Source of the DNA: Erysipelotrichaceae bacterium | Lineage (GTDB): Bacteria > Bacillota_I > Bacilli_A > Erysipelotrichales > Erysipelotrichaceae | Direction of reading: 5' to 3' | NCBI GenBank assembly: GCA_030528645.1 | Contig: JAUMYM010000011.1 | Location: 1 to 42,348, forward strand | DNA: 42,348 bases | Shown: positions 7,053 through 40,019 of the stretch, in pieces | Layout: every line of letters starts with the position of its first letter | How positions within the stretch are numbered: the stretch's first letter is position 1 | Made by a program: the position numbers and the translations under genes | Notes under the pieces: model-generated | Told to the model about the DNA's origin: nothing | Database searches by the model: none | The model's input: only the letters and a program-made list of their open reading frames with translations

Positions 7053-7070
7053 GGTGTATTCTCCTAATTA

Positions 7071-7150
7071 AAAATGGTACACACAATTAGAGGCTCGTAT
7101 GGCTGCTTCATTCCTGACCTGACCAGATTAGAACATAATTGTTGTACCGT
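7071..7150 (-). ncRNA. ffs: Signal recognition particle RNA, small 4.5S type
   Basis: On the minus strand the conserved SRP hairpin reads GGTCAGGTCAGGAATGAAGC followed by AGCC-type sequence. It has the GGAA tetraloop and the asymmetric loop that binds Ffh. The tetraloop is closed by A-U rather than the usual C-G. Outer strands GGTACAACAATTA and TAATTGTGTGTACC pair to close an RNA of about 75-80 nt, with T-rich sequence after it. Its place between serS and tadA is the conserved position of the SRP RNA gene in Bacillota. Exact ends are inferred. Confidence 0.93.
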
Positions 7151-7155
7151 ATGAT

Positions 7156-8514: not shown

Positions 8515-8715
8515 TAAAAAAGAGATACCATCTAAAGGACGATATCTCGTGTTGCCACCTTCATTGCAAAATGTTTCACGTGAAACATTTTACCACTCAA
8601 ACTATAACGCAGCGATGCGGGAAGGATTAGTTCCACTAAAAGGTAGATTTCATTCATACTTCTTAATGACTCGCATCAACCGTCATCTTTCTTAAAAGAA
8701 GTTATCAATTACTTA
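8515..8715 (-). promoter_or_regulatory. T-box riboswitch (serine) upstream of serS
   Basis: On the minus strand the T-box AAGGTGGCAACACG (complement of 8548-8561) is followed by a terminator stem GAGATAT...GGTATCTC and a run of T. The UGGC of the bulge can pair with GCCA of tRNA-Ser, whose discriminator base is G, which supports serine. Stem I is outlined by GATGCG and CGCATC upstream. I could not fix the specifier codon; UCU and UCC triplets are both present in the stem I region. The stem between Stem I and the antiterminator contains parS site 2. The 5' boundary is approximate. Confidence 0.88.
8572..8587. other. parS centromere site 2, inside the serS T-box leader
   Basis: This second TGTTTCACGTGAAACA is identical to site 1, 1373 bases away. 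Here the dyad extends further (AAAATG and CATTTT flanks), making a perfect 24-bp palindrome. In RNA the same bases form a strong hairpin between T-box Stem I and the antiterminator, the position usually taken by Stem II/III. Confidence 0.93.
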
Positions 8716-8814
8716 TCCTTTATCATTGTTATACTAGTATTTAATCACTATAGTTAGCAAAATGCAATAAATTTAAAGTATAAATTTATGAAAAAACACT
8801 ATTTCATATACATC

Positions 8815-8847: not shown

Positions 8848-11321
8848 AATTGCTCTTCCATAACATCTTCAGCTTCTTCATTGCTATCTTCACTACTAGT
8901 AATAATCGCAACGGTACTCACTTTACTACCTTCTGTCGGCTTCATTAAGCGAACCCCTTGTGTTGAGCGTCCTAATGTTGATACTTTTGATAGATTAATA
9001 CGAATAACAATACCATCATCCGTCATGATTAAACAATCTTCATCTCCATTAACCGCTCTTAAGGATACAAGTTGTCCATTTTTCTCAGTAACCTTAATTG
9101 TTGATACCCCTTTTCCTCCTCGAGAAGTAATACGGTAATCTTCAAGGCTTGATTTTTTACCATATCCATTTTCTGATACAACAAGTAAGAAGTTTCCGTT
9201 ACTTGATGTAGCCATACCAACAACATAGCCACCATCGACGTTCATACCTTTAATACCGGTCGCTGTTCTTCCCATACTACGAACACATTTTTCATCAAAA
9301 CGCACGGCTTTTCCATTGCTTGCAGCAATAATAATATCATCGTTTCCTGTAGTAGGACGAACCATAACTAATTGATCGTCTTCTTTTAAATGAATCGCAA
9401 TCTTACCATTTTTATTGATATTTTCAAATTCACTAACAGAAGTCTTTTTCACAAGACCTTTTTTTGTTGTAAAGAATAGATATTTATATTGTTCATTATC
9501 CTTTTTAATCGGAACAAGTGCTTTTACTTTTTCATCTTTATCAAGATCAATTAAGTTAATCGCCGGAATTCCTTTTGAAGTACGAGATGCCTCCGGAACT
9601 TTATAGCCCTTAATGCGATATACTCGACCAAAGTCCGTAAACAATAATAAGTAATCATGGGTTGACATTGAGATAAAAGAATCAATGACATCATCTTCAT
9701 TTACACTCATACCTTTAACACCACGACCTCCACGGTTTTGAATCTTATACGTATCTTGATTAATACGTTTCATATATCCATTCACCGTCATTGAAATAAT
9801 AATATCTTCTACCGGTATTAAATCTTCATCTTCAACTTCCAATACTCCTTCTAAGATTTCACTACGACGAGCATCTCCATATTTTTCTTTGACTTCTAAC
9901 AATTCCTGTTTAATGATTGCAATAACACGATCATGATTTGCAAGAATGTCCTTTAAGTCTTCAATGATATGTAACATTTCTTGATATTCTGCAACAATCT
10001 TATCACGCTCTAAGCCGGTAAGACGTTTGAATTGCATATCTAAAATTGCTTTTGCTTGAATTTCTGTTAATTCAAAACGATTCATTAACTCTTGCATCGC
10101 CAATGCAGTATCTTTCGAATTGCGTATTAGCGTTAAGATTTCATCAATGTGATCAATCGCAACTTTTAATCCTAATAAGATATGTGCACGATCTTCCGCT
10201 TTCTTTAATTCAAACTGTGTACGTCGTACCACAACATCCACTTGGTGCTTCGCATAATACTTTAAGACTTCTTTTAATCCTAGCTGCATTGGAACATTAT
10301 TTACCAATACAATGGTATTAACACCAAAGGATGTTTGTAAAGCAGTCATACGATATAACTGATTTAAAATAACCTCTACTTGAGCATCTTTTTTACATTC
10401 AATAACAATACGAATCCCTTTCATGCTTGATTCATCTGTTAAATCGGTAATCCCTTCAACTAAGCGATCACGTACTAAAGACGCTATTTTTTCAACTAAA
10501 TTTGCTTTATTAACAAGATATGGAATTTCATAGATAACAATACGTTTTTTACCATTAGATAGTTCTTCAATATTGACTTTACTACGAATGACAATGCTTC
10601 CACGTCCTGTTTCATAGGCTTGTTTGATGCCTGCTCGACCCAAAATATAGCCTCCGGTTGGAAAGTCAGGTCCACTGATGTAGTTATCCATCAATTCAAC
10701 CACACTAATATCCGGATGTTCCATAACCGCAATGGTTGCATCAATGGTTTCTGCGATGTTATGTGGAGGAATATTTGTTGCCATACCTACAGCTATCCCG
10801 CTTGTTCCATTTACCAGTAAGTTAGGGAATTTGGCAGGTAATACTACCGGTTCCTTTTCTTCTCCATCGTAGTTATCCATCCAATCAACGGTATCTTTTT
10901 GAATGTCCTTTAACATTTCCATGGAAATTTTTGACATACGTGCTTCCGTATAACGCATTGCCGCTGCTCCATCTCCATCCAAAGATCCAAAGTTACCATG
11001 CCCATCCACCAATGGATAGCGATAACTAAAGTCTTGTGCCATACGAACCATCGTTTCATAAACTGCAACATCACCATGAGGGTGGTATTTCCCAATAACA
11101 TCCCCAACAATACGAGCAGATTTCTTATGCGGTTTATCTGCTACAATTCCTAAAGCATTCATCGCATATAAAATACGACGATGCACCGGCTTTAATCCAT
11201 CACGAACATCCGGTAAAGCACGTGATACGATGACGGACATTGAATAATCAAGAAAGCTTGTACGCATTTCTTTGGAAATATTTACTTGAACAATTTTTCC
11301 ATGGTTAAATTTTTCTTCCAT
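8838..11321 (-). CDS. gyrA: DNA gyrase subunit A
   Basis: GyrA is the breakage-reunion subunit of gyrase, introducing negative supercoils together with GyrB. The protein is 827 aa. The winged-helix domain contains catalytic Tyr124 in [11 protein letters not shown]. The C-terminal beta-pinwheel carries the GyrA box region [10 protein letters not shown] near residue 540 and repeated blades. In the quinolone-determining region, [17 protein letters not shown] has Val85 at the place of E. coli Ser83 and Glu89 at Asp87; the valine is unusual for a susceptible gyrase. The ribosome site AAGGAGGCTTAT precedes ATG, 10 bases after gyrB. The tail is short and acidic. Confidence 0.97.
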
Positions 11322-17655: not shown

Positions 17656-18408
17656 ATGAAAAAAGGAATGATTTTATTCATGGTAAGTATCTTAGTGGCT
17701 TGTACGCCAAATACAAAAGAGGAAACAACCATGCCTAAGGAAGAAACAACGACGACAATGACAACAACAATCCAGACAACCAGTGAAACAACAACTACAC
17801 AAGAAATCATTGAAACAACAAAAGCTATGCAAAGTGAAAAGGATATTGATGATTACAATAGTATCTATGTCATTATCAATAAACAAAGACCATTGCCACA
17901 GGATTATGAACCAAGTGATTTAGTGATACCTAATGTAAGTTTGATGAAAGAATTGTATTTACGTAAAGAAGCTGCAGAGGCGATTGAAGAAATGTTTGAA
18001 GCAGCACTCAAGGATGGAATAGAATTAAAAATTGGTAGTGGTTATCGCTCTTATGCATATCAAAGTCGTTTATATAGTAATTATGCAAAGCGTGATGGAG
18101 AAGAGGCGGCATCTCGTTATAGTTCTAAGCCGGGACAATCGGAACATCAAACTGGTTTGGTGGTCGATCTTGCCGCAAGCAATGAGGTATGTTACTTAGA
18201 ACAGTGTTTTGAAGATACAAAGGAAGCGCAATGGTTATTTGAGCATAGTTATAAATATGGGTTTGTACTTCGTTATTTAAAAGATAAAGAAGATATTACG
18301 GGTTATATGTATGAACCATGGCATTATCGTTATATTGGAAAAGAAGAAGCTAAGAAGATCTATGAAAGTGGATTGACGTTAGAAGAGTATTTTGGTTTGG
18401 TGGAATAA
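17656..18408 (+). CDS. VanY/DdcY-family D-alanyl-D-alanine carboxypeptidase lipoprotein
   Basis: This is a peptidoglycan-trimming metallopeptidase of the LAS/VanY type, 250 aa. The N-terminus MKKGMILFMVSILVAC is a lipoprotein signal with lipid-anchored Cys16. A Thr-rich spacer (about residues 24-55) keeps the enzyme off the membrane. The catalytic domain has SGYRSYAYQSRLY near 126, the zinc motif SEHQTGLVVDL near 162 with His and Asp, and the second zinc His in EPWHYRY near 220. The ribosome site is AGAGGTAAGTT. It lies just right of oriC, where rpmH is normally expected. The substrate is presumed to be the terminal D-Ala of peptidoglycan stem peptides. Confidence 0.92.
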   Translation: MKKGMILFMVSILVACTPNTKEETTMPKEETTTTMTTTIQTTSETTTTQEIIETTKAMQSEKDIDDYNSIYVIINKQRPLPQDYEPSDLVIPNVSLMKELYLRKEAAEAIEEMFEAALKDGIELKIGSGYRSYAYQSRLYSNYAKRDGEEAASRYSSKPGQSEHQTGLVVDLAASNEVCYLEQCFEDTKEAQWLFEHSYKYGFVLRYLKDKEDITGYMYEPWHYRYIGKEEAKKIYESGLTLEEYFGLVE

Positions 18409-18410
18409 AC

Positions 18411-18439
18411 AAGTAGAAATAAAAAGTTCTACTTTTTAT
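18411..18439 (+). terminator. Terminator after the VanY-like gene
   Basis: AAGTAGAA and TTCTACTT pair with a 8-base A-rich loop, followed by TTTATTTG. Confidence 0.7.
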
Positions 18440-18479
18440 TTGTAGAAAATAATAATATGTGTATTATATTGTTATTATA

Positions 18480-18508
18480 TTGACAATCAAAAATATAATG
18501 GTTAATAT
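18480..18508 (+). promoter_or_regulatory. Probable promoter of the five-gene cassette
   Basis: A consensus TTGACA (18480-18485) is followed after 17 bases by TAATAT (18503-18508), four of six matches to the -10 consensus. A TATAAT lies between them but at only 8 bases from the -35, too close to pair with it. Confidence 0.5.
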
Positions 18509-18531
18509 TTAAAAAGGAAAAATTTATTAGC

Positions 18532-18570
18532 TATCAAAAAAATTATTTAAAATAAATAATTTTTTTGATA
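18532..18570 (+). repeat. Perfect 18-bp inverted repeat in the cassette leader
   Basis: TATCAAAAAAATTATTTA and its exact reverse complement are separated by three bases. It lies between the likely promoter and the first gene, 57 bases before the ATG. It is not followed by a T run, so it is not a normal terminator. It could be an mRNA-stabilising hairpin or a protein-binding dyad. Confidence 0.8.
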
Positions 18571-18627
18571 AATATAGTTAATAAAATATCTAGCATAAAT
18601 ACATAAAATGGGAGGGATAAAATATTT

Positions 18628-20340
18628 ATGTCAAAAGATTATATAGTTGATTCTTCAAAAATTAATGATATTGAGAAAACAATAAATTTAATTTATGAAA
18701 ATCTAGAGCTTGTAAGTGAAAAAGTAGAAGATACAAATAACAATACTCAAATTATCTATAATGATCTAGAAAAACTTTCAAATGATTTTTATGAATTTGT
18801 TCAAATGCAGTTAAGAGCAAATGCGAAATCAAATTCTCAGCAAAGATTGATTCAAATACGTCAAGAAATAGAGAAGAAATTTGGTCACTATGATGATATA
18901 AGAAGAACAGCAATAGGAATTTTACAAGCTGATGACTTAGGTATTGTTAAGAGGGAAACAATTACCACTGTTACAGAAGAATTAATGATTTCTACACCTG
19001 GATATTGGCTTGCACCGTGTTTAGTAGCTCTCGCTGCTTGGATTAATGATAAACAAGAATTAGCAGAGAAAGCTTTAAGAGAAGGGATAAAAAGAGATGA
19101 TGAAAAAACATCATTATTTTTTGCATTAATATGTAGAAGAGCAAACAAAAAATTAGCTGCACTTAAATGGACACAAAGATATTTGGAAAATCAAGATGCA
19201 GAATCAATTGATAGAAAAACAGTCATAATTATTGATGCTTATGCAAGTGGCTTATTAGGAGTTGATTCAGAAGGGTATGTTACTAAACAAATTAAAAATT
19301 GGATAAAAAAATTAGAAGAAAAAGATAACTATATTGAAAATCAATCAAAACAATGGTCTGATTCAATTAAATTAAAGAGAAAACCATTTAACGATGAAGA
19401 ATATGTATATTTAAAAAAGTATAGTAATACATGGTCAATTTTAGAAGATATAATGGAAGGAGCCATATTAAATATAGATATTTTAGATTATTTTAAGTCT
19501 ATTTTTGATAAAGAAGTATCAAATGAACCTTTAAAGGTAAGATTAGATGAAATTCTCAATGGTCTTGTAACAGATTTTGATGAGGAAGAAGTTCCATTAA
19601 AAAAAGAAGAAAGATACAATCAGTATATAGTGGATTTTGAAGGAGATGTAGAAAGAGCAGAAAACTATATGGAAGCAGAGAAAAATATATTTGATGAAAG
19701 AAAAGATTTTTCTCAAATATTGACAGATGCAGCAATGAATCCTGAAATTGCAAAAACAAGCATGTCAACTCAAAAATTTGCAATAGCACTTTCGAAAGAA
19801 TGGATTATAAATGCATATAATGATTTAACTGTAGAAAACAGAATGAAAATACCTTCAGAAATAGAAATTAATATAGAATCTTTTAATGACAAGACAACAG
19901 ATGGTAAAAATCAGGAAGAAATAATAAAAAGATTTAATGATTATATTGATGAAAAATTAGAAAATGAATTATATGAATATGAGTTTACTGGTTTAGAATC
20001 AATGTTTTTATATGGAGGTTTAGTTTTAGGAATAATTGGATTAATTACACTTAATTTTGCTTTTATATTAATTGGAGCTGTATTATTTTTTTATTTTAAT
20101 TCTAAAAAAAGATCCAAGAGAATTCAATATGAAAATATTGAAGATGAATATTCAGAAAAAAGAAAAAAAGGAATACAAATTATTGTTGCACTTCTAGCAG
20201 AAGTAGTAGATTTTAGAATTGATTTTTCAGAAAAGGATCAAGTTAGTAAAGATGTTATTGATTATTTATCTGAAATTCAACCTGAACAGTATATAAACAA
20301 ATTAGCAGAATCAAATCGCAGAATAAAAATGGAAATTTAG
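18628..20340 (+). CDS. Unrecognised 570-aa protein with a C-terminal membrane hairpin (cassette gene 1)
   Basis: The family is not recognised. Residues 1-70 are polar and heptad-like (coiled coil). The middle (about 75-440) is helical and includes the Ala/Leu-rich helical stretch PGYWLAPCLVALAAWINDKQ near 125-145, resembling helical-repeat packing. Two adjacent hydrophobic segments near residues 459-475 and 478-495 form a membrane hairpin, followed by a basic stretch KKRSKR and a final soluble helical part. The start is supported by GGGAGGG about 12 bases upstream. Arginines are mostly AGA and isoleucines often ATA. The next small gene starts 13 bases after the stop. It may be the membrane partner of the AAA+ protein; that is inference. 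Confidence 0.85.
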   Translation: MSKDYIVDSSKINDIEKTINLIYENLELVSEKVEDTNNNTQIIYNDLEKLSNDFYEFVQMQLRANAKSNSQQRLIQIRQEIEKKFGHYDDIRRTAIGILQADDLGIVKRETITTVTEELMISTPGYWLAPCLVALAAWINDKQELAEKALREGIKRDDEKTSLFFALICRRANKKLAALKWTQRYLENQDAESIDRKTVIIIDAYASGLLGVDSEGYVTKQIKNWIKKLEEKDNYIENQSKQWSDSIKLKRKPFNDEEYVYLKKYSNTWSILEDIMEGAILNIDILDYFKSIFDKEVSNEPLKVRLDEILNGLVTDFDEEEVPLKKEERYNQYIVDFEGDVERAENYMEAEKNIFDERKDFSQILTDAAMNPEIAKTSMSTQKFAIALSKEWIINAYNDLTVENRMKIPSEIEINIESFNDKTTDGKNQEEIIKRFNDYIDEKLENELYEYEFTGLESMFLYGGLVLGIIGLITLNFAFILIGAVLFFYFNSKKRSKRIQYENIEDEYSEKRKKGIQIIVALLAEVVDFRIDFSEKDQVSKDVIDYLSEIQPEQYINKLAESNRRIKMEI

Positions 20341-20353
20341 GAGAAATAATATA

Positions 20354-20527
20354 ATGGAAAATGAAAAAAATAATTTGGAAATAAACAGTAGTAATGTAAC
20401 AAATGTATCAGCTTTTAAATCCATAGAAGAAAAAAAAGAAATCGAAGTGAATGATTACCAAAATTTCGCCAATGGATTTCCTGAATGGAGTTTAGAACCA
20501 CCTCAAATGGTCGTTAGAAAAAAATAA
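20354..20527 (+). CDS. 57-aa peptide with Trp/Pro tail (cassette gene 2)
   Basis: This short frame is preceded by TAGGAGAAATAATATA, whose AGGAG overlaps the stop of gene 1. The protein begins MENEKNNLEINSSNVTNV, is charged and probably unstructured, and ends GFPEWSLEPPQMVVRKK. The compact PEWxLxPP tail after a disordered body reads like a short linear docking motif. Its stop is two bases before the next start, so it is inside the operon. It is too short for most gene callers. No family is recognised. Confidence 0.75.
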   Translation: MENEKNNLEINSSNVTNVSAFKSIEEKKEIEVNDYQNFANGFPEWSLEPPQMVVRKK

Positions 20528-20529
20528 AT

Positions 20530-21000
20530 ATGGTATCTAAAAATATTATTGTACCTAAAACATATGCAGAATGGGTTGAAATATTACAAGTATTAAAAGA
20601 AAAAGAAAATGATGAAGAAATAATAACAGTGATGAATCAAGGTATAATTGATTGGCAATCTGGTGTAGCAGAGAGATTTGTAAAAAAATTTATAGATTCT
20701 ATCAATTATAGAATGAATAGTGCATCTGATCGATTTCAAAAAGAAATGCAAAGAGCCTACGGAAGAGAAAGAGATATAATAAATGCGATTCTTTCACTGA
20801 GAAAAGAAATAAATTTTTTATTTAAAGTAATTGATATACCTGCAATTCCAGAAGAAGAAAGAAAAAAATATCATGATTTATTTTTTAATCAAGTAAATAA
20901 AATGCAAAATTCTTTAGAAGAATCAGCTAAACAAGATCGAAGTGGTAAATTTTCAAATATTGTAAAAAATCATCGAATAAATACAATTTCTAAGGAGTAA
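20530..21000 (+). CDS. Unrecognised 156-aa helical protein (cassette gene 3)
   Basis: The product is rich in Lys, Glu and Arg, with no membrane segment and no catalytic motif I can see. A predicted helical N-terminus (TYAEWVEILQVLKEKENDEE) is followed by long amphipathic helices (RMNSASDRFQKEMQRAYGRE and so on), suggesting a helical bundle or coiled coil. There is no good ribosome site in front of the ATG; the upstream peptide gene ends two bases before, so translation is probably coupled. Codon usage is AGA-rich. Confidence 0.85.
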   Translation: MVSKNIIVPKTYAEWVEILQVLKEKENDEEIITVMNQGIIDWQSGVAERFVKKFIDSINYRMNSASDRFQKEMQRAYGRERDIINAILSLRKEINFLFKVIDIPAIPEEERKKYHDLFFNQVNKMQNSLEESAKQDRSGKFSNIVKNHRINTISKE

Positions 21001-21004
21001 ATAT

Positions 21005-22579
21005 ATGACTGATATTGTAAAAAGTAAAGAATTATTAAAAAGATATTCAATAGCAAGAATTCCTTTTGTAGCTATTAATACAATTGAAAGATCTAGAATA
21101 TTAGATGTATTAAAAGAAATTTCTGAAGAACTTTCACTTTCATTTTATGTTCATACATTATCGAAAGGAATATATGATATAGCAACATCTAAGGTTATTA
21201 ATGAAGATAAATCTGTATATGGTGCTATTGATTTTATGAGTGATAAAATGAAGAACAGACAATACATGACTTTAGTTTTAACTGAAATTCCAGATTTAAG
21301 TACAGATAATCCAGATTCAAGACAAATACTTGATTTAGTAAATTTAGCTAATGAATCAGGTGGAGTTATTATTGTCTTAACTAATAATTCAATTTGGAAT
21401 CAGTTACAAAGACAGGGAATGGTAATAAAAGTAGATCTTCCTGATGAAAATGAAATGTATAGTATAATAAAAAACTACATTGATGAATATCGTTCAGAAA
21501 TTTTTATAGAATGGGATAATAATGACATTAGAGAAGCGGCTTCTACATTAGCAGGGGTTACACGTATTGAAGCAGAAAATGTAATTGCAGCACTTATTGC
21601 AAATAAAACAATAAAAAAATCAGATATGGATGAAGTTAGATATGCAAAAGATCGACTTTTTTCAGATATATCAGGATTAGAAAAAATAGAAGTTGAAAGT
21701 AGCTTAAATGATGTTGGAGGATTAAAAGGTTTAAGAATGTGGTTGAACGAAAAGAAAGCATTGCTTAGCCCAGAAAAAAGAGATGAACTTAGAAAAAAAG
21801 GCTTACAACCACCAAGAGGAATTCTTTTAGTCGGAGTTCCAGGTTGTGGAAAATCAATTTCAGCAAAAGCAATTTCTTCTAGTTGGAAACTACCATTGTA
21901 TCGGTTAGATTTTGCAACGGTTCAAGGAAGTTATGTTGGACAATCAGAACAACAATTAAAAGATGCATTAACAACTGCAGAAAATGTATCACCATGCATA
22001 TTGTGGATTGATGAAATAGAAAAAGGATTATCTGGAGTTGGCAGTTCAGGTGATGGTGGTGTTTCCACTAGAATGGTTGGACAATTCTTGTTTTGGCTAC
22101 AAGAATGTAAAAAACAAGTTTTTGTTGTAGCTACAGCAAATGATGTTTCTATGCTTCCTTCAGAGTTATTACGTAGAGGAAGATTTGATGAACTATTTTT
22201 TGTAGACTTACCTACGGCAGAAGAAAGAAAAGAAATTCTTTCATTATATATGAGAAAGTATCTAAAACTTGATTTTAGTGGTAGCTTTTCTGATAAGGTA
22301 GTAGAAATTACTGAGGGTTTTACAGCAGCAGATTTAGAATCAACAGTAAGAGATTTAGCATATCGTTCAATAGCAAATGAGTCATTTGTGATTAATGAAG
22401 AGAACGTAGAAAATGCATTTAATAATGTTGTTCCTTTATCACAAACAAGTCCAGAGAAAATAAATTCTATTCGTGAGTGGGGAAAAGAAAGAGCAGTTCC
22501 TGCTTCTGGCAAACCAATTGGTATAGAAGAACTTTCAGAAAAGAAAGCAAATACTAAAACTAGAAAAGTATTAGTATAA
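21005..22579 (+). CDS. Ycf46-like AAA+ ATPase (cassette gene 4)
   Basis: This 524-aa AAA+ ATPase resembles the Ycf46/FtsH-type clade. The N-terminal third (RYSIARIPFVAINTIERSRI and onward) matches the layout of the Ycf46 N-domain. The AAA module has Walker A GVPGCGKS near residue 277, a pore-loop-like FATVQGSYVGQSEQQL, Walker B ILWIDEIEK near 331, a sensor-1 region VVATANDV and arginine fingers in LLRRGRFDEL near 389. The C-terminal lid has GFTAADLESTVRDLAYRS. Ribosome site AAGGAG precedes the ATG. All ATPase residues are intact, so it is likely an active hexameric remodeller. Its substrate is unknown; candidates are the neighbouring cassette proteins. Confidence 0.93.
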   Translation: MTDIVKSKELLKRYSIARIPFVAINTIERSRILDVLKEISEELSLSFYVHTLSKGIYDIATSKVINEDKSVYGAIDFMSDKMKNRQYMTLVLTEIPDLSTDNPDSRQILDLVNLANESGGVIIVLTNNSIWNQLQRQGMVIKVDLPDENEMYSIIKNYIDEYRSEIFIEWDNNDIREAASTLAGVTRIEAENVIAALIANKTIKKSDMDEVRYAKDRLFSDISGLEKIEVESSLNDVGGLKGLRMWLNEKKALLSPEKRDELRKKGLQPPRGILLVGVPGCGKSISAKAISSSWKLPLYRLDFATVQGSYVGQSEQQLKDALTTAENVSPCILWIDEIEKGLSGVGSSGDGGVSTRMVGQFLFWLQECKKQVFVVATANDVSMLPSELLRRGRFDELFFVDLPTAEERKEILSLYMRKYLKLDFSGSFSDKVVEITEGFTAADLESTVRDLAYRSIANESFVINEENVENAFNNVVPLSQTSPEKINSIREWGKERAVPASGKPIGIEELSEKKANTKTRKVLV

Positions 22580-22593
22580 AATAGGAGAAAGAA

Positions 22594-23088
22594 ATGCCAA
22601 AATTAATGTTAAAGCAAGAAAAAATACAGAAAGAAAAACAAGAAACATTAAATATTAGTGATTCTCAATTGAATGTAAAAAAAACAAATGCATTTGAAGT
22701 AAAAATGAATGAAAAATTATTGAGAAAACAACGAAGTAAAAAATACATTGAAAAATTACATAAATTAGATGTCGGTGGACATGTAAATAATCAAGAAAAA
22801 GTACAAGAAATAATTAATGAAATTAAACAGGAATTTCCAGAAATTAAGATAGAAGATATATTGATAGGAATAGTATCTATTTGTTGTTTAGGAGATCCGT
22901 ATGAAGTTCATACACTGGATTTATCTTTGGAAATTATTGAACATTATAAAAGAGGAGAAAAACTTCCTGAAAGAATGGAAAAAGCGCGTAGTCTTGCAAT
23001 ACATGGTGGTTATTCATTTATAGAAGTTTATGAAGATTGTTTAAGAGCAGTAAATCGTGATGGAAGAGTATCTGTAATTTATTGTTAA
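22594..23088 (+). CDS. Unrecognised 164-aa protein (cassette gene 5)
   Basis: The N-terminal 60 residues are Lys/Gln/Glu-rich and likely disordered or coiled. A more globular C-terminal half follows: LDVGGHVNNQEKVQEIINEI, then IEDILIGIVSICCLGDPYEVH and a final helix ending RVSVIYC. There is no membrane segment or known catalytic motif. ATAGGAGAAAGAA is a good ribosome site, 14 bases after the AAA+ gene. The last gene of the cassette; the next 116 bases lead to rpmH. Confidence 0.85.
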   Translation: MPKLMLKQEKIQKEKQETLNISDSQLNVKKTNAFEVKMNEKLLRKQRSKKYIEKLHKLDVGGHVNNQEKVQEIINEIKQEFPEIKIEDILIGIVSICCLGDPYEVHTLDLSLEIIEHYKRGEKLPERMEKARSLAIHGGYSFIEVYEDCLRAVNRDGRVSVIYC

Positions 23089-23124
23089 TAGAGCTGTCTT
23101 TAGTAATAATAAACATTAGATAAC

Positions 23125-35593: not shown

Positions 35594-37042
35594 ATGAATA
35601 ATACAGTACTAAAAAAAGAATTGTTTTTAGATTTAAGTATTAATGAAAAAGAGTCGTTTTTTTCAACTCATATCAATAATGCAATAGTAGGAGCTAAAAA
35701 TGAACTGAATGAACTGAAGGAAAGCGTTGAATCTATTAAAAAATTGAAACCAGAATGTGATTATTTAGATTATATTTTAGCAGCAAGTTCTGGCGCCTTG
35801 TGTGGGATTATCGATATATTCTTAGTTGGAAAACCTGGGGAAACCCCTTTAGGTAAATGGACAGATAATAAATTTAATGATGCGGTTATGGCTTTTGCCA
35901 AAAGTTGTGGTTGGTCACCAAAGGAAGGTAATAAAAATGATGTTGCAAATGCAATTGGATTTTTAGAAAAATGTTTTAAAGTTCCATATGATCAAACAGG
36001 TATGGGTGACTCTGGAAAAATTATTTTTGGATTAAATGCAAAAAATCATCATTATAAATCTTTGGCTCACAATCCAAGTTTGTTAGGATTATTCTTTTCA
36101 ATACTTGATCAGTTTAATAATACTTCTCATTTTGTAACAGATGGAAAATTAATTTCGTTAGAAAAAGCAAAGGAAGGATGGGAGTTACAGGGGAATAATG
36201 TTCCTAGTAAAATATTTTGTGGTTTTGTGAATTGGTTTGGTCATCTTGTTTCAGATGTGTCTGGATCTAAATCAAGTGCAAGTGAAGGAAGCCGAGGGAT
36301 GGGTTTACCTTCACCATTATGGGTATGGATAAATGATCTTATTGCTATTAAAAGTAAATTAGGATTGACTGTAACAGAAACAGATAAATCATTCAATGAA
36401 TTAGCTTTGAATATATTTGAGAAAGGGTACGATTTACGTTTCCAAACAACTCAAGCAATACCTGTTTTAATAAATGAGTTGATAGTACGTTTCATATATT
36501 CGATAAGAAGATTATTTAAGTACTATATAGAAATACCCAAGTTTAATCAATCTTTGAAAATGATATGGCAAAATTGTGAACCATTTTCAAATGCAACTGT
36601 TAAAAGAATGCTTACAGTTGCACATGGTACTTTTTGTTTAATTGATATTGGGGATGCGACAGTAAAATCATTTGTTTCAGGTGGAGGTAACTTCAATATT
36701 ATAGAATTTGTTTTAAGACTTAATGTAGTTGGTGTAGGAAGATTTACGATTTCTCTTTATGGAGAAATAAAAAGAGAAATTACATATTACAAAGCAAGTA
36801 AAGAATATGAATTTGCTAATAAGAAAATGATAATTATTAGTCATTATATAGAGGGATTAAAAATTTTGTCAGAAGTATATAATGATAAATATGTATTAAA
36901 CTTTGTTGAAGATTTTAAACGAAGTGATGCTTACAAACAGGGATTTGAAAAGACAGTTAAACTTGCAAAATTACGCAAAGTTACAGAAGACAAAATATTG
37001 AAAAATAAATCAGATATTGATACATATTTCGGAGGTAAATAA
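35594..37042 (+). CDS. Unrecognised 482-aa protein, first gene of a two-gene unit
   Basis: The family is not recognised. The N-terminus is polar. A short hydrophobic, Ala/Gly-rich stretch AASSGALCGIIDIFLVGKPG near residues 63-82 precedes the block GKWTDNKFNDAV. Further distinctive blocks are KSLAHNPSLLGLFFSILDQF and, near 220-243, DVSGSKSSASEGSRGMGLPS. Hydrophobic segments near 290-312 and 370-390 are less clearly membrane spanning. A histidine-rich stretch NAKNHHYKSLAHNP could bind metal but is not a known motif. It is followed two bases later by the coiled-coil/membrane-hairpin protein, so the two form an operon. Codons lean to AGA and ATA. Confidence 0.85.
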   Translation: MNNTVLKKELFLDLSINEKESFFSTHINNAIVGAKNELNELKESVESIKKLKPECDYLDYILAASSGALCGIIDIFLVGKPGETPLGKWTDNKFNDAVMAFAKSCGWSPKEGNKNDVANAIGFLEKCFKVPYDQTGMGDSGKIIFGLNAKNHHYKSLAHNPSLLGLFFSILDQFNNTSHFVTDGKLISLEKAKEGWELQGNNVPSKIFCGFVNWFGHLVSDVSGSKSSASEGSRGMGLPSPLWVWINDLIAIKSKLGLTVTETDKSFNELALNIFEKGYDLRFQTTQAIPVLINELIVRFIYSIRRLFKYYIEIPKFNQSLKMIWQNCEPFSNATVKRMLTVAHGTFCLIDIGDATVKSFVSGGGNFNIIEFVLRLNVVGVGRFTISLYGEIKREITYYKASKEYEFANKKMIIISHYIEGLKILSEVYNDKYVLNFVEDFKRSDAYKQGFEKTVKLAKLRKVTEDKILKNKSDIDTYFGGK

Positions 37043-37044
37043 TA

Positions 37045-38154
37045 ATGGGGAAAAAAGAAACTAAGCTTTCAAAAGCACAAAAAGAAACAGAATTAGCTGT
37101 ACAGCATGTAAATCAAAAAATAGATGAGCTAGGAGTATGTACAAGTGTTTTATACTCGAGCTTAAAAAATGTACAAGTTTTGTTTGATTCTATTAGAAAT
37201 GTGCCAAATGAAGATAAAATAAAATATGAGAAATTAAAAGAAACTAGAAATGAATGGAAAAAACAAGTTGAAAATATAGAAATAGAGTATAAAAAGGCAG
37301 AAATAAAAGCAGTAGGACAAGGAGCAGTAGGAGTGGGGGTAGGAGTTGCGGTTGTAGCGCTTGGTCCAACGGCTGCGATGGGTGTAGCAACAACGTTTGG
37401 AGTGGCATCTACTGGTACAGCAATAGCGGCATTACATGGAGTGGCGGCTACCAATGCGGCTTTGGCTTGGTTAGGTGGTGGAGCCTTAGCTGCTGGTGGT
37501 GGCGGAATGGCTGCCGGTCAAGCATTTTTAGCCTTAGCAGGTCCAGTAGGATGGACGATTGCAGGTTTAACTTTAGCATTTACAGGTTTGATGCTTTTTA
37601 AGACTAAAGAAGATAAAGAAAGATTAGAAAATATCTTTACTTTAATTAGTAATCGAGATACCAAATCTTATGAATTAGCTATCGTGGAATTAAAAGAACG
37701 TATTGATAGAATTAAAATAGAGTCAAAAATGTTAGCAAATTCTATTATAAAAATTGAAAAATTTGGTAATGATTATAATAAAATGACAGAAGCTCAACAG
37801 TACGAATTAGGATCTTATGTTAATCTTATGGAAAGTTCTACTATGTTACTTGTTAATCCAATTTTAGGTTTACAACCTAAATATACAGAACAAGATTTAG
37901 AAATATTTAAAAATCAAGTAGAAGATAAATTAAAAGGCTATCTTACTGATCGAAAGAATTTGGTACTATCATTAGCTAATTTACTTTATAAAGTTGATCT
38001 TAATAGTATGGATAGAAACCTATTAACAAAGTCATTCAAACAAAATAAAGATTTTTTAGAATCTTTCCATTTGTCAAAAAAAGAATTTGATGTTAAAGAT
38101 TTAAAAATAGTAAGTGAAGCATTAAATTTTCATTATCCATGTAATAATTATTAA
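37045..38154 (+). CDS. Coiled-coil protein with Gly/Ala-rich membrane segment, 369 aa
   Basis: Three regions are visible. Residues 1-88 are Lys/Glu-rich and coiled-coil like. About residues 92-188 are strikingly Gly/Ala/Val-rich (GAVGVGVGVAVVALGPTAAM and onward), ending in GWTIAGLTLAFTGLMLF, long enough for two or three membrane passes and resembling glycine-zipper or pore-forming segments. Residues 190-369 return to a long helical, charged region. The gene starts two bases after its partner and is closed by a terminator. The function is unknown; a membrane-acting effector is one possibility by architecture only. Confidence 0.85.
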   Translation: MGKKETKLSKAQKETELAVQHVNQKIDELGVCTSVLYSSLKNVQVLFDSIRNVPNEDKIKYEKLKETRNEWKKQVENIEIEYKKAEIKAVGQGAVGVGVGVAVVALGPTAAMGVATTFGVASTGTAIAALHGVAATNAALAWLGGGALAAGGGGMAAGQAFLALAGPVGWTIAGLTLAFTGLMLFKTKEDKERLENIFTLISNRDTKSYELAIVELKERIDRIKIESKMLANSIIKIEKFGNDYNKMTEAQQYELGSYVNLMESSTMLLVNPILGLQPKYTEQDLEIFKNQVEDKLKGYLTDRKNLVLSLANLLYKVDLNSMDRNLLTKSFKQNKDFLESFHLSKKEFDVKDLKIVSEALNFHYPCNNY

Positions 38155-38161
38155 TATAATG

Positions 38162-38189
38162 AAACTCCTTATGATATAAGGAGTTTTTA
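38162..38189 (+). terminator. Terminator after the two-gene unit
   Basis: AAACTCCTTAT and ATAAGGAGTTT pair perfectly (11 bp) with a 3-base loop, followed by TTT. Confidence 0.88.
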
Positions 38190-38227
38190 GTTGTTTAAAC
38201 AGTGTAAAAAGAAAAAATTTTTAAAAA

Positions 38228-38275
38228 GGTTATTGATAACCTACAATAATGTGGTATGATAATGTTGTAAAGGTT
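38228..38275 (+). promoter_or_regulatory. Promoter with overlapping dyads before the M-S fusion gene
   Basis: TTGATA (38233-38238) and TATGAT (38255-38260) are 16 bases apart. The -35 lies inside the dyad GGTTAT-TG-ATAACC. A second motif, GGTTATAAGAAACC, lies between the -10 and the ribosome site AAAGGAGG. Repeated GGTTAT/AACC elements suggest a bound regulator, possibly self-control of the methylase. Confidence 0.6.
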
Positions 38276-38300
38276 ATAAGAAACCTAAAGGAGGAAAGAA

Positions 38301-40019
38301 ATGAATTATAATTATTTAGAAGAAATCAACAACGAACGCTTATTGAAATGTATGAAAATGGAATTAATGACATTTTCAGGAGGGTATTCATACAATAAGG
38401 CAGTTATCATCGCTTATGCTATGTATAAAATGCAAGAAAATCCTAATATGAATAAAACAGAGGAACTATTACAAAGTTTATCTGATAAAAAGAAGATCCA
38501 AGAGATTCTAAATGATACACTTTCAAGAGATTGGGATATTGTTGAAAAGTTTAAAAATGAATTTACAAAAGATGAATTGCTAGCATTTATTTTATTTGAA
38601 CCTGAAAAAAAATATTTATCAAGAACTAACAAAATATCAAGTGGTATTTCTAAACTAGCATTAAAACTATTGGATATCAAAGAAGATGAAACATGTTTAG
38701 AACTATGTTCAGGAACGGGATCATTTATGCTTAATGCCTTTAGATACACGCCAATGAGTAACTACATGGGAATTGAAAGTATGATGGATGATTATGCAAT
38801 TGCATTACTTAGAGCAGATGTCATTGGGAAAGAAGTTTTTTTAAAATTAGATGATGCTTTAGATTACGAAAGTGATGAAAAGGCAGATAAATTATTCTCA
38901 AACTATCCATTTGGGTTTAAACGTTTCAGCCTAAGAGATCAAGCGTTAAAACTAGAACAAAAACTAAACATCAATGATCGCTCGCTAGAACATGCTTCAT
39001 CGGATTGGGTTTTTAATGCAAAACTGGTTGAGCAATTAAAACAGGGTGGAAAAGCCATAGCGATTATGAGCAATGGATCAGCTTGGAATACAGGAGATAG
39101 AAGAATTAGAAGATTCTTTGTAAACAATAAGTATATTGAAGCAGTGATTGCATTACCAGAATACTTGTTATGTGGAATTCGAAGTGGAGTAACATTAGTT
39201 GTATTTAGTTATGATAACCAATCCATTCGTTTTGTAGATGCAAGTAAGGAATATAAAATAGCAGATCGAAGATATGAATTAACAGATGAAAATATTGATA
39301 CGATTCTACACTATTTATCGGTAGATACAGAGTATTCAACAACGAAAACAATCGAAGAAGTTGTAGAACATGACTATAGTTTCAGTGTGATTAACTACAC
39401 TGCAGAAAAAGTGGAGTTCAAGAATAAAACAAAGTTTAGAAATGTAGCAAACATTAATCGAGGAGTACAATTAAGAGCAAATGAAATTGATAAGTATAAA
39501 ACAGAAGAAGCTACATCGTATAAATTCATTACGCTTGCGAATGTGAATGATGGCTATTTATCAACGGAAGAAAATTGTCAATATCTCACAAAGATACCTG
39601 AAAAATGGGAAAGTTATTGTGTGAAAAATAATTCCTTGCTTATTTCAAAATTAGGAAGTTCAACTTTTAAGTCAGCAGTCGTAAATCTTAAGGATAATGA
39701 AACATTAGTAGTAGCCGGTAATTTCTTTATTATTGAATTAGAAGAAGATAAAATAGATCCATTTTATTTACAGGCATTTTTGATGAGTGATCTTGGTGTG
39801 AATGCGTTGAATCATATTAAATCTGGTACACATATATATACAATGTCTATAGATCGATTATCAAACATGGATATTCCGTTACCTTCTCTTGAGGTGCAAA
39901 AGAAAATTGGAAAAGTGTATAAGGATACGGTGGAAGAACTTATTGTGTTGAATAAACAACTGGAAAAAAATAAAAATAAGTTAAATGCTATCTTTGAAGA
40001 AGAGGGTGGAAATCAATAG
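38301..40019 (+). CDS. Fused N6-adenine methyltransferase and specificity protein (M-S fusion)
   Basis: The 572-aa protein joins a methylase to a target-recognition domain. Residues about 1-340 form the Rossmann methylase: motif I LELCSGTGSFMLNA near 133 binds S-adenosyl methionine. Motif IV is SNYPFGF near 199, the usual NPPF/Y with Tyr for the first Pro. Residues about 375-572 resemble one HsdS half: FRNVANINRGVQL, a central conserved helix, then HIYTMSIDRLSNMDIPLPSL and a coiled-coil end. Ribosome site AAAGGAGGAAAG. It lacks a visible nuclease and so may be an orphan modification enzyme, or it may work with the neighbouring type I system; that is inference. Confidence 0.88.
   Translation: MNYNYLEEINNERLLKCMKMELMTFSGGYSYNKAVIIAYAMYKMQENPNMNKTEELLQSLSDKKKIQEILNDTLSRDWDIVEKFKNEFTKDELLAFILFEPEKKYLSRTNKISSGISKLALKLLDIKEDETCLELCSGTGSFMLNAFRYTPMSNYMGIESMMDDYAIALLRADVIGKEVFLKLDDALDYESDEKADKLFSNYPFGFKRFSLRDQALKLEQKLNINDRSLEHASSDWVFNAKLVEQLKQGGKAIAIMSNGSAWNTGDRRIRRFFVNNKYIEAVIALPEYLLCGIRSGVTLVVFSYDNQSIRFVDASKEYKIADRRYELTDENIDTILHYLSVDTEYSTTKTIEEVVEHDYSFSVINYTAEKVEFKNKTKFRNVANINRGVQLRANEIDKYKTEEATSYKFITLANVNDGYLSTEENCQYLTKIPEKWESYCVKNNSLLISKLGSSTFKSAVVNLKDNETLVVAGNFFIIELEEDKIDPFYLQAFLMSDLGVNALNHIKSGTHIYTMSIDRLSNMDIPLPSLEVQKKIGKVYKDTVEELIVLNKQLEKNKNKLNAIFEEEGGNQ

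Follow-up and report, generated by a model that had tools for sequence, protein, structure and literature searches.

AAA+ ATPases of the Ycf46 type are known from plasmid cassettes in which the ATPase is accompanied by DUF1257 (Ycf35), DUF2997 and a 4Fe-4S protein. The endosomal sorting complex required for transport (ESCRT) likewise combines a classical-clade AAA+ motor, Vps4, with coiled-coil membrane partners such as ESCRT-III, and archaeal ESCRT loci include a zinc-ribbon SPFH protein (PMC10936438). The phage shock protein (Psp) and SPFH systems bring together a membrane-associated helical protein with SPFH and zinc-ribbon neighbours, and PspA loci can carry AAA+ proteins with an inactive N-terminal copy (PMC11237479). 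Other described settings with which comparison can be made are IetAS, a contractile injection system on a Treponema plasmid, and the MoxR-vWA ternary conflict systems. Here we describe a cassette of five genes at positions 18628-23088 of a 42,348-nucleotide stretch of DNA from an Erysipelotrichaceae bacterium (contig JAUMYM010000011.1, assembly GCA_030528645.1; the whole stretch is termed the window). Judged by its recurrence in distant genomes, the cassette is a real conserved module. We infer, with confidence evenly balanced for and against, that this mobile, self-contained module would use ATP to remodel protein assemblies bound to the cytoplasmic membrane.

The gene products are named A (570 amino acids, aa), B (57 aa), C (156 aa), D (524 aa, the ATPase) and E (164 aa). 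All five reading frames lie on the forward strand, separated by gaps of 13, 2, 4 and 14 bases, and their coordinates match exactly those of an initial annotation, which had described five co-directional genes with gaps of 2-14 bases:

18628..20340, + strand: A, membrane-linked helical protein, 570 aa (open reading frame, AlphaFold2 (AF2) model, hydrophobicity)
20354..20527, + strand: B, 57-aa peptide with a variable N-terminus and a conserved C-terminal motif (open reading frame, motif comparison)
20530..21000, + strand: C, 156-aa soluble protein, helical judging by its sequence, without a known family
21005..22579, + strand: D, 524-aa classical-clade AAA+ ATPase, Ycf46-like, with an N-terminal region that lacks a Walker A motif
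22594..23088, + strand: E, 164-aa protein whose N-terminus is helical and whose C-terminal alpha/beta domain has six strands

Related loci were picked by ATPase similarity alone from about 85,000 species, each represented by a single genome, and the best 80 of 578 candidates were analysed, with ATPase identities running from 85% down to 37%. Across these 80 loci A lies upstream of the ATPase, and C between A and the ATPase, wherever the contig extends, and the order A-B-C-D is found in every kept locus whose contig reaches far enough. The carriers belong to at least eight phyla, including Bacillota, Mycoplasmatota, Fusobacteriota, Pseudomonadota, Bacteroidota, Actinomycetota, Fibrobacterota and Myxococcota as well as others. 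The suggestion that the set co-occurs in distant genomes is borne out by the presence of the A and C families in eight phyla at loci chosen by the ATPase only; rather than differing in every relative, the neighbours of the ATPase include A and C at locus after locus. Pairwise distances of A, C and E track those of D (r 0.87-0.92), a correlation that none of 999 permutations equalled. Compared with its nearest relatives, the window's D is 84% identical and its A, C and E are 52-59% identical. Reading frames are intact in nearly all loci, and broken copies are few (for example, loci L012, L027 and L037).

The E family is present in 65 of the 80 loci, following the ATPase in most Bacillota and preceding A in Pseudomonadota, Bacteroidota, Actinomycetota, Bacillales and the Fusobacterium locus L034. 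It is absent from ten loci with complete flanks, nine of which fall in one Bacilli/Mycoplasmatota-type clade, the tenth being L087. Five further loci lacking E are cut by contig ends, and L098, a locus with multiple A genes, also lacks it. L087 and L098 represent a variant clade in which three copies of A surround the ATPase and no E is found.

Scans of the window's proteins against Pfam, NCBIfam, PADLOC and PHROGs agree with the initial annotation that only the ATPase of the set is recognisable. D matches PF00004 in Pfam (1.7e-28), the closest PDB relatives of its AAA domain are VCP/CDC48, and by these similarities D is a classical-clade AAA+ ATPase. Its Walker A, Walker B and arginine fingers had been called intact, and the catalytic residues are indeed invariant in 67 relatives:

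21833..21856, + strand: Walker A GVPGCGKS, D residues 277-284 (G277 and P279-S284 invariant in 67 sequences)
22001..22021, + strand: Walker B LWIDEIE, D residues 333-339 (D336/E337 invariant in 67 sequences)
22172..22183, + strand: arginine fingers, D residues 390-393 (R390 and R393 invariant in 67 sequences)

In residues 1-230 of D, neither a Walker A motif nor a separate match to an AAA family was found. D also matches phrog_8638, a phage family of unknown function, along almost all of its length (2e-102). In a tree that was quickly built and has long outgroup branches, 87 cassette ATPases form one clade with a Shimodaira-Hasegawa-like approximate likelihood ratio test (SH-aLRT) value of 99. 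Outside this clade lie the ATPases of DUF1257/DUF2997 plasmid cassettes, of a contractile injection system, of an IncA/C-type plasmid and of phages. The description of D as Ycf46-like is correct as far as the family goes, but the ATPases of the cassette group separately from those linked to DUF1257/DUF2997.

The Ycf46 ATPases of DUF1257/DUF2997 plasmids (for example, L103 in Geminocystis and L106 in Paenibacillus polymyxa) are about 30-35% identical to D over near full length and, like it, have a single active classical AAA domain preceded by an N-terminal region; they differ in their position outside the SH-aLRT 99 clade and in their wholly different partners, and Pfam and NCBIfam found no DUF1257 or DUF2997 among the five window proteins. 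Likeness to ESCRT-III/Vps4 lies in a classical-clade motor with coiled-coil membrane partners and in the SPFH and zinc-ribbon proteins of some loci, whereas the cassette's partner families are unrelated by sequence, with no MIT or Snf7 domain in the window's proteins or listed among A and E family members. The Psp/SPFH systems resemble the cassette in having a membrane-associated helical protein and SPFH and zinc-ribbon neighbours, and their occasional AAA+ protein with an inactive N-terminal copy would be a further likeness; however, an SPFH neighbour stands beside only one cassette, and PspA_IM30 has no match in the window's proteins and none listed for 71 A members. PADLOC models of IetA match D, mainly in the AAA domain (8e-33), but the cassette has no subtilisin-like IetS and no protease match among its five proteins. 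The Ycf46-type ATPase of the contractile injection system on Treponema plasmid pTRESU01 (L094, 8001-9431) is 35% identical over 93% of D, yet it falls outside the cassette clade and no A, C or E was found beside it. With respect to the MoxR-vWA systems, the five window proteins show no vWA match, and D is closest to classical AAA proteins rather than MoxR. Since none of the ESCRT, Psp, IetAS or MoxR-vWA features tested was found, the cassette is assigned to none of them, and on the best reading it would be an analogue of the ESCRT and Psp systems rather than a member. The gene set is undescribed in the system catalogues and in the openly licensed literature that were searched.

The partner of the motor that would sit at the membrane is A. 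Its AF2 model, with a predicted local distance difference test (pLDDT) value of 85, consists of an N-terminal coiled-coil helix, TPR-like repeats, a C-terminal hydrophobic hairpin and a 70-residue helix, with the helices near the hairpin spanning residues 455-474 and 477-548:

19999..20127, + strand: hydrophobic hairpin region of A, about residues 458-500 (Kyte-Doolittle segment 469-487, AF2)

All 77 of the A homologues compared have a hydrophobic stretch, with a median length of 38 residues and a median start at 80% of the protein's length, and such a stretch is almost absent from C and E. The location of this stretch in the A proteins is consistent with the membrane-linked partner proposed at the outset. 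A of the window has no convincing match in Pfam, NCBIfam, PADLOC or PHROGs, and 71 A proteins gave scattered weak matches to coiled-coil, TPR and membrane families. The solved structures nearest to A are TPR proteins and long helical bundles, at a level that any helical model reaches.

Peptide B had been recorded as a plain 57-aa peptide; its length and position stand, but a conserved C-terminal motif had been overlooked:

20477..20524, + strand: C-terminal hallmark motif of B, FPEWSLEPPQMVVRKK ([FL]PxW[DS][LI]xPP, then a basic tail)

The fuller form of the motif, [FL]PxW[DS][LI]xPP..RR, lies in the last 13-20 residues, and the N-terminus is variable, carrying a zinc ribbon in many Bacillota relatives. 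A frame between A and C with the pattern P.W.[LIVMF].[PTS] at most 40 residues from its C-terminus occurs in 67 of 84 loci, compared with 6 of 3,638 control frames, and several of the pattern-negative loci have a degenerate motif (Streptomyces GLPDWEPLPPGETVVRR). The window's B has no convincing match in the four collections scanned. With a short motif kept while the rest of the peptide drifts, the tail may be a docking tail.

The window's E and its C, the only copy of C that was scanned, likewise have no convincing match in Pfam, NCBIfam, PADLOC or PHROGs, and none of 63 E proteins matched Pfam. The predicted C-terminal domain of E has six strands (pLDDT about 77-89), and residues C97, H106, H117, Y140 and E144 are invariant in 63 sequences. 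A sequence search of the PDB with profiles of A, C and E returned nothing meaningful.

The genomic position of the cassette, beside the replication origin and flanked by two core genes, with vanY (17656-18408) on one side and the rpmH promoter (23125) on the other, can be compared with that in the same-genus genome G067, where the arrangement is vanY-137 bp-rpmH at 97% identity and the cassette is absent:

18409..23114, no strand: inserted segment of 4,706 bp (137 bp at the same place in G067)
18480..18508, + strand: candidate cassette promoter TTGACA-17-TAATAT (consensus match only, 10/12)
18532..18570, no strand: perfect 18-bp AT-rich inverted repeat with a spacer of 3 in the cassette leader

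The difference at this place, 4,706 bp in the window against 137 bp in G067, shows the cassette to be a discrete insertion with vanY and rpmH as its neighbours. The break falls exactly at the vanY stop and, at the other end, 10 bases before the rpmH -35 hexamer, and in a blastn comparison of the window with L095 the flanks are 96.7% and 97.2% identical. No direct or inverted repeats of at least 10 bases were found at the insertion ends, no integrase or target-site repeats were found in the inserted segment, and a profile search gave no match to A elsewhere in G067. The claim that the cassette is rich in AGA and ATA codons is confirmed: in A, C, D and E, AGA accounts for 55 of 71 arginine codons and ATA for 63 of 143 isoleucine codons, versus 62 of 280 and 95 of 657 in 16 other window genes. 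This bias, together with the absence of the segment from G067, supports a foreign origin. The position given in the initial annotation, where dnaA and rpmH are normally adjacent, is confirmed and made more exact, but in the genus these two genes are not adjacent even without the cassette, since vanY separates them in G067 as well. The proposed promoter of the cassette's own has a candidate in TTGACA-17-TAATAT, but promoter-like sites in the region overall are no more numerous than in shuffles of that region. The inverted repeat of the leader, a possible operator or hairpin, is not conserved in the leaders of relatives.

In the class, 4 of 395 genomes have full-length A, as do 3 of 98 in a second family, and A is therefore accessory in all groups examined. 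A profile search of the class listed 57 of the 395 genomes, and the matches beyond the four were partial, nearly all of them to the C-terminal helices. To judge from copies in a satellite phage, on a plasmid and beside recombinases, the cassette is horizontally mobile. One copy ends the Streptococcus oralis satellite phage Javan368, opposite the integrase, another (L101) adjoins serine recombinases, and a Komagataeibacter plasmid carries a copy near a tyrosine recombinase. A occurs in one of 50,697 phage records and in four plasmids, so that chromosomes or unassigned contigs account for the majority of copies. A viral_contigs search for mobile-element context returned one related locus only, and E. 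coli gave no cassette match at the DNA level.

For the conflict half of the initial reading, the flanks of the related loci were compared with control stretches for their content of defence genes. At a PADLOC threshold of 1e-10, about a dozen of 128 flank proteins matched, versus at least as many of 129 proteins from chosen stretches of the same genomes away from the cassette; the totals are approximate because the tables count members per family, and the control is of modest size, being drawn from 20 of the 34 flank genomes, with reading frames called mechanically. Defence genes being no commoner in the flanks than in the controls, the defence-island argument fails, although a defence role is still possible; most of the flank families that have names are metabolic or housekeeping ones. 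Proteins with N-terminal zinc ribbons make up 16 of 757 flank frames (at 11 of 88 loci) versus 1 of 271 controls (Fisher p = 0.055). Individual loci have other neighbours: in L098 the three A copies have an upstream neighbour of the SPFH/Band 7 type that bears zinc ribbons, a zinc-ribbon dynamin is found in L015, TcaA-like proteins lie near the cassette in L053, and YARHG proteins in L096 and L027. In Mogibacterium (L028) the cassette belongs to a large cluster that also encodes a HerA-like ATPase, a vWA-like protein and a tubulin-like protein, several of these names being read from sequence. These SPFH, dynamin, TcaA, YARHG and HerA-cluster associations are few and serve as leads rather than proof. 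A link to HerA-type ATPases was rejected, being confined to three loci and having no match in the window's genome.

Several further observations were made. Between the ATPase and E of L028, a serine-rich frame with an HNH-like C-terminus (9630-11087) adjoins a SUKH immunity gene. Directly downstream of E in L009 (6758-10156) is a 1132-aa protein in which an FtsH-type M41 peptidase is joined to two AAA domains. The window has a second AGA/ATA-rich stretch at 35594-40019, possibly a small restriction or defence island. It holds two genes of unknown function, encoding 482 aa and 369 aa, the latter with a hydrophobic segment rich in glycine, and after them a gene whose sequence suggests an N6-adenine DNA methylase. 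Rfam identified a T-box leader (8532-8735, - strand) and a bacterial small signal recognition particle RNA (7068-7153, - strand), both ordinary.

The remodelling reading draws on the fixed A-B-C-D set, the co-divergence of its members, the single ATPase clade and the invariant catalytic residues, and also on the hydrophobic stretch of A, the long helices and TPR-like repeats of its model, the B motif and the few membrane-remodelling neighbours. At the membrane, D would dock to assemblies of A as a ring, which by analogy with its VCP/Vps4-type relatives is probably a hexamer, and the tail of B (often on a zinc ribbon) and C would act as adaptors joining D to A. Through cycles of ATP hydrolysis D would disassemble, extract or re-set A, and an assembly of A on or in the membrane would thereby be switched on and off. 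E, with its invariant Cys/His/His/Tyr/Glu set, would be a dispensable sensor, modifier, regulator or enzyme, and candidate triggers are envelope damage, phage infection and competing elements. More tentatively, the cassette might represent a hitherto undescribed class of bacterial membrane remodeller, ESCRT-like in pairing a motor with a scaffold but having arisen independently and been carried between phyla by mobile elements, with an ATPase steered by a short Trp-Pro tail peptide; this we consider possible though doubtful. Of the initial proposal of a membrane-linked remodelling or conflict system, the membrane partner is supported; the conflict half is weakened by the flank comparison, though a conflict role is still possible. 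Against a remodelling machine weigh the Pfam search, in which the window's proteins had no ESCRT-III, PspA or MIT match, and the structure searches. For A the best PDB match (E-value 0.06, Z 8.5) is at the level of common helical arrangements and not convincing, and for E the best matches in the PDB and viral models reached a Foldseek E-value of 0.19 and a VIA Z of 4.3. The membrane-remodelling neighbours are confined to a handful of loci, and the zinc-ribbon enrichment near the cassette, which counts in favour of this reading, is borderline (p = 0.055). Physical contact among A, B, C, D and E is suggested only by their co-occurrence, and A is a presumed substrate of D. The absence of fold matches for A and E does not make those folds new.

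Defence against phages or other elements partly overlaps with the remodelling reading, because a remodelling machine could serve defence. In such a system A would be a pore-forming or membrane-disrupting effector held inactive with B, C and E, and on infection D would sense or release it, leading to abortive infection. The patchy distribution (4 of 395 and 3 of 98 genomes), the foreign codon use, the clean insertion missing from a same-genus genome, the copies at the end of Javan368, beside serine recombinases and on a plasmid near a tyrosine recombinase, and the faster divergence of A, C and E than of D would all fit, as would a weak likeness of the C-terminal half of A to alpha-pore-forming toxins, although its Z of 7.2-7.8 is below the meaningful level for helical models. 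Set against these points are the flanks, mostly housekeeping in their named families and not enriched in defence genes over controls, the scarcity of A in phages (one of 50,697 records) and in plasmids (four), and the limitation of PADLOC matches to the general AAA domain; defence therefore seems to us a minority prospect. A role as assembly or export chaperone for a toxin-delivery or injection-type apparatus, in which D and its adaptors would fold or load substrates at the membrane, could explain the 35%-identical ATPase within the pTRESU01 injection locus and the L028 cassette, which encloses the HNH-like frame by the SUKH gene within the HerA-like, vWA-like and tubulin-like cluster. It is unlikely, as the Treponema ATPase lies outside the cassette clade in a locus without A, C or E, the HerA or toxin context occurs in very few loci, and the window's genome has no HerA protein match. 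That there is no functional unit at all, the neighbours of a Ycf46-type ATPase merely hitch-hiking by chance, might be argued from four genes of unknown function in a cassette known from sequence alone; this is highly improbable, being contradicted by the same set and order in eight phyla, by co-divergence and by mostly intact frames.

What recurs, then, is a recognisable motor together with a motif-bearing peptide and three families without convincing relatives in Pfam, NCBIfam, PADLOC, PHROGs or the PDB. Carriers include the culturable Streptococcus oralis, Enterococcus caccae, Paenibacillus and Flavobacterium, and a set so widely kept, yet missing from the catalogues that were searched, lends itself to direct testing through the B motif and a single A-D pair. 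If the cassette does serve in defence, it would do so outside defence islands, where association-based searches miss it. If the remodelling machine at the membrane is the true account, the known bacterial repertoire of AAA+-driven membrane machines would be widened.

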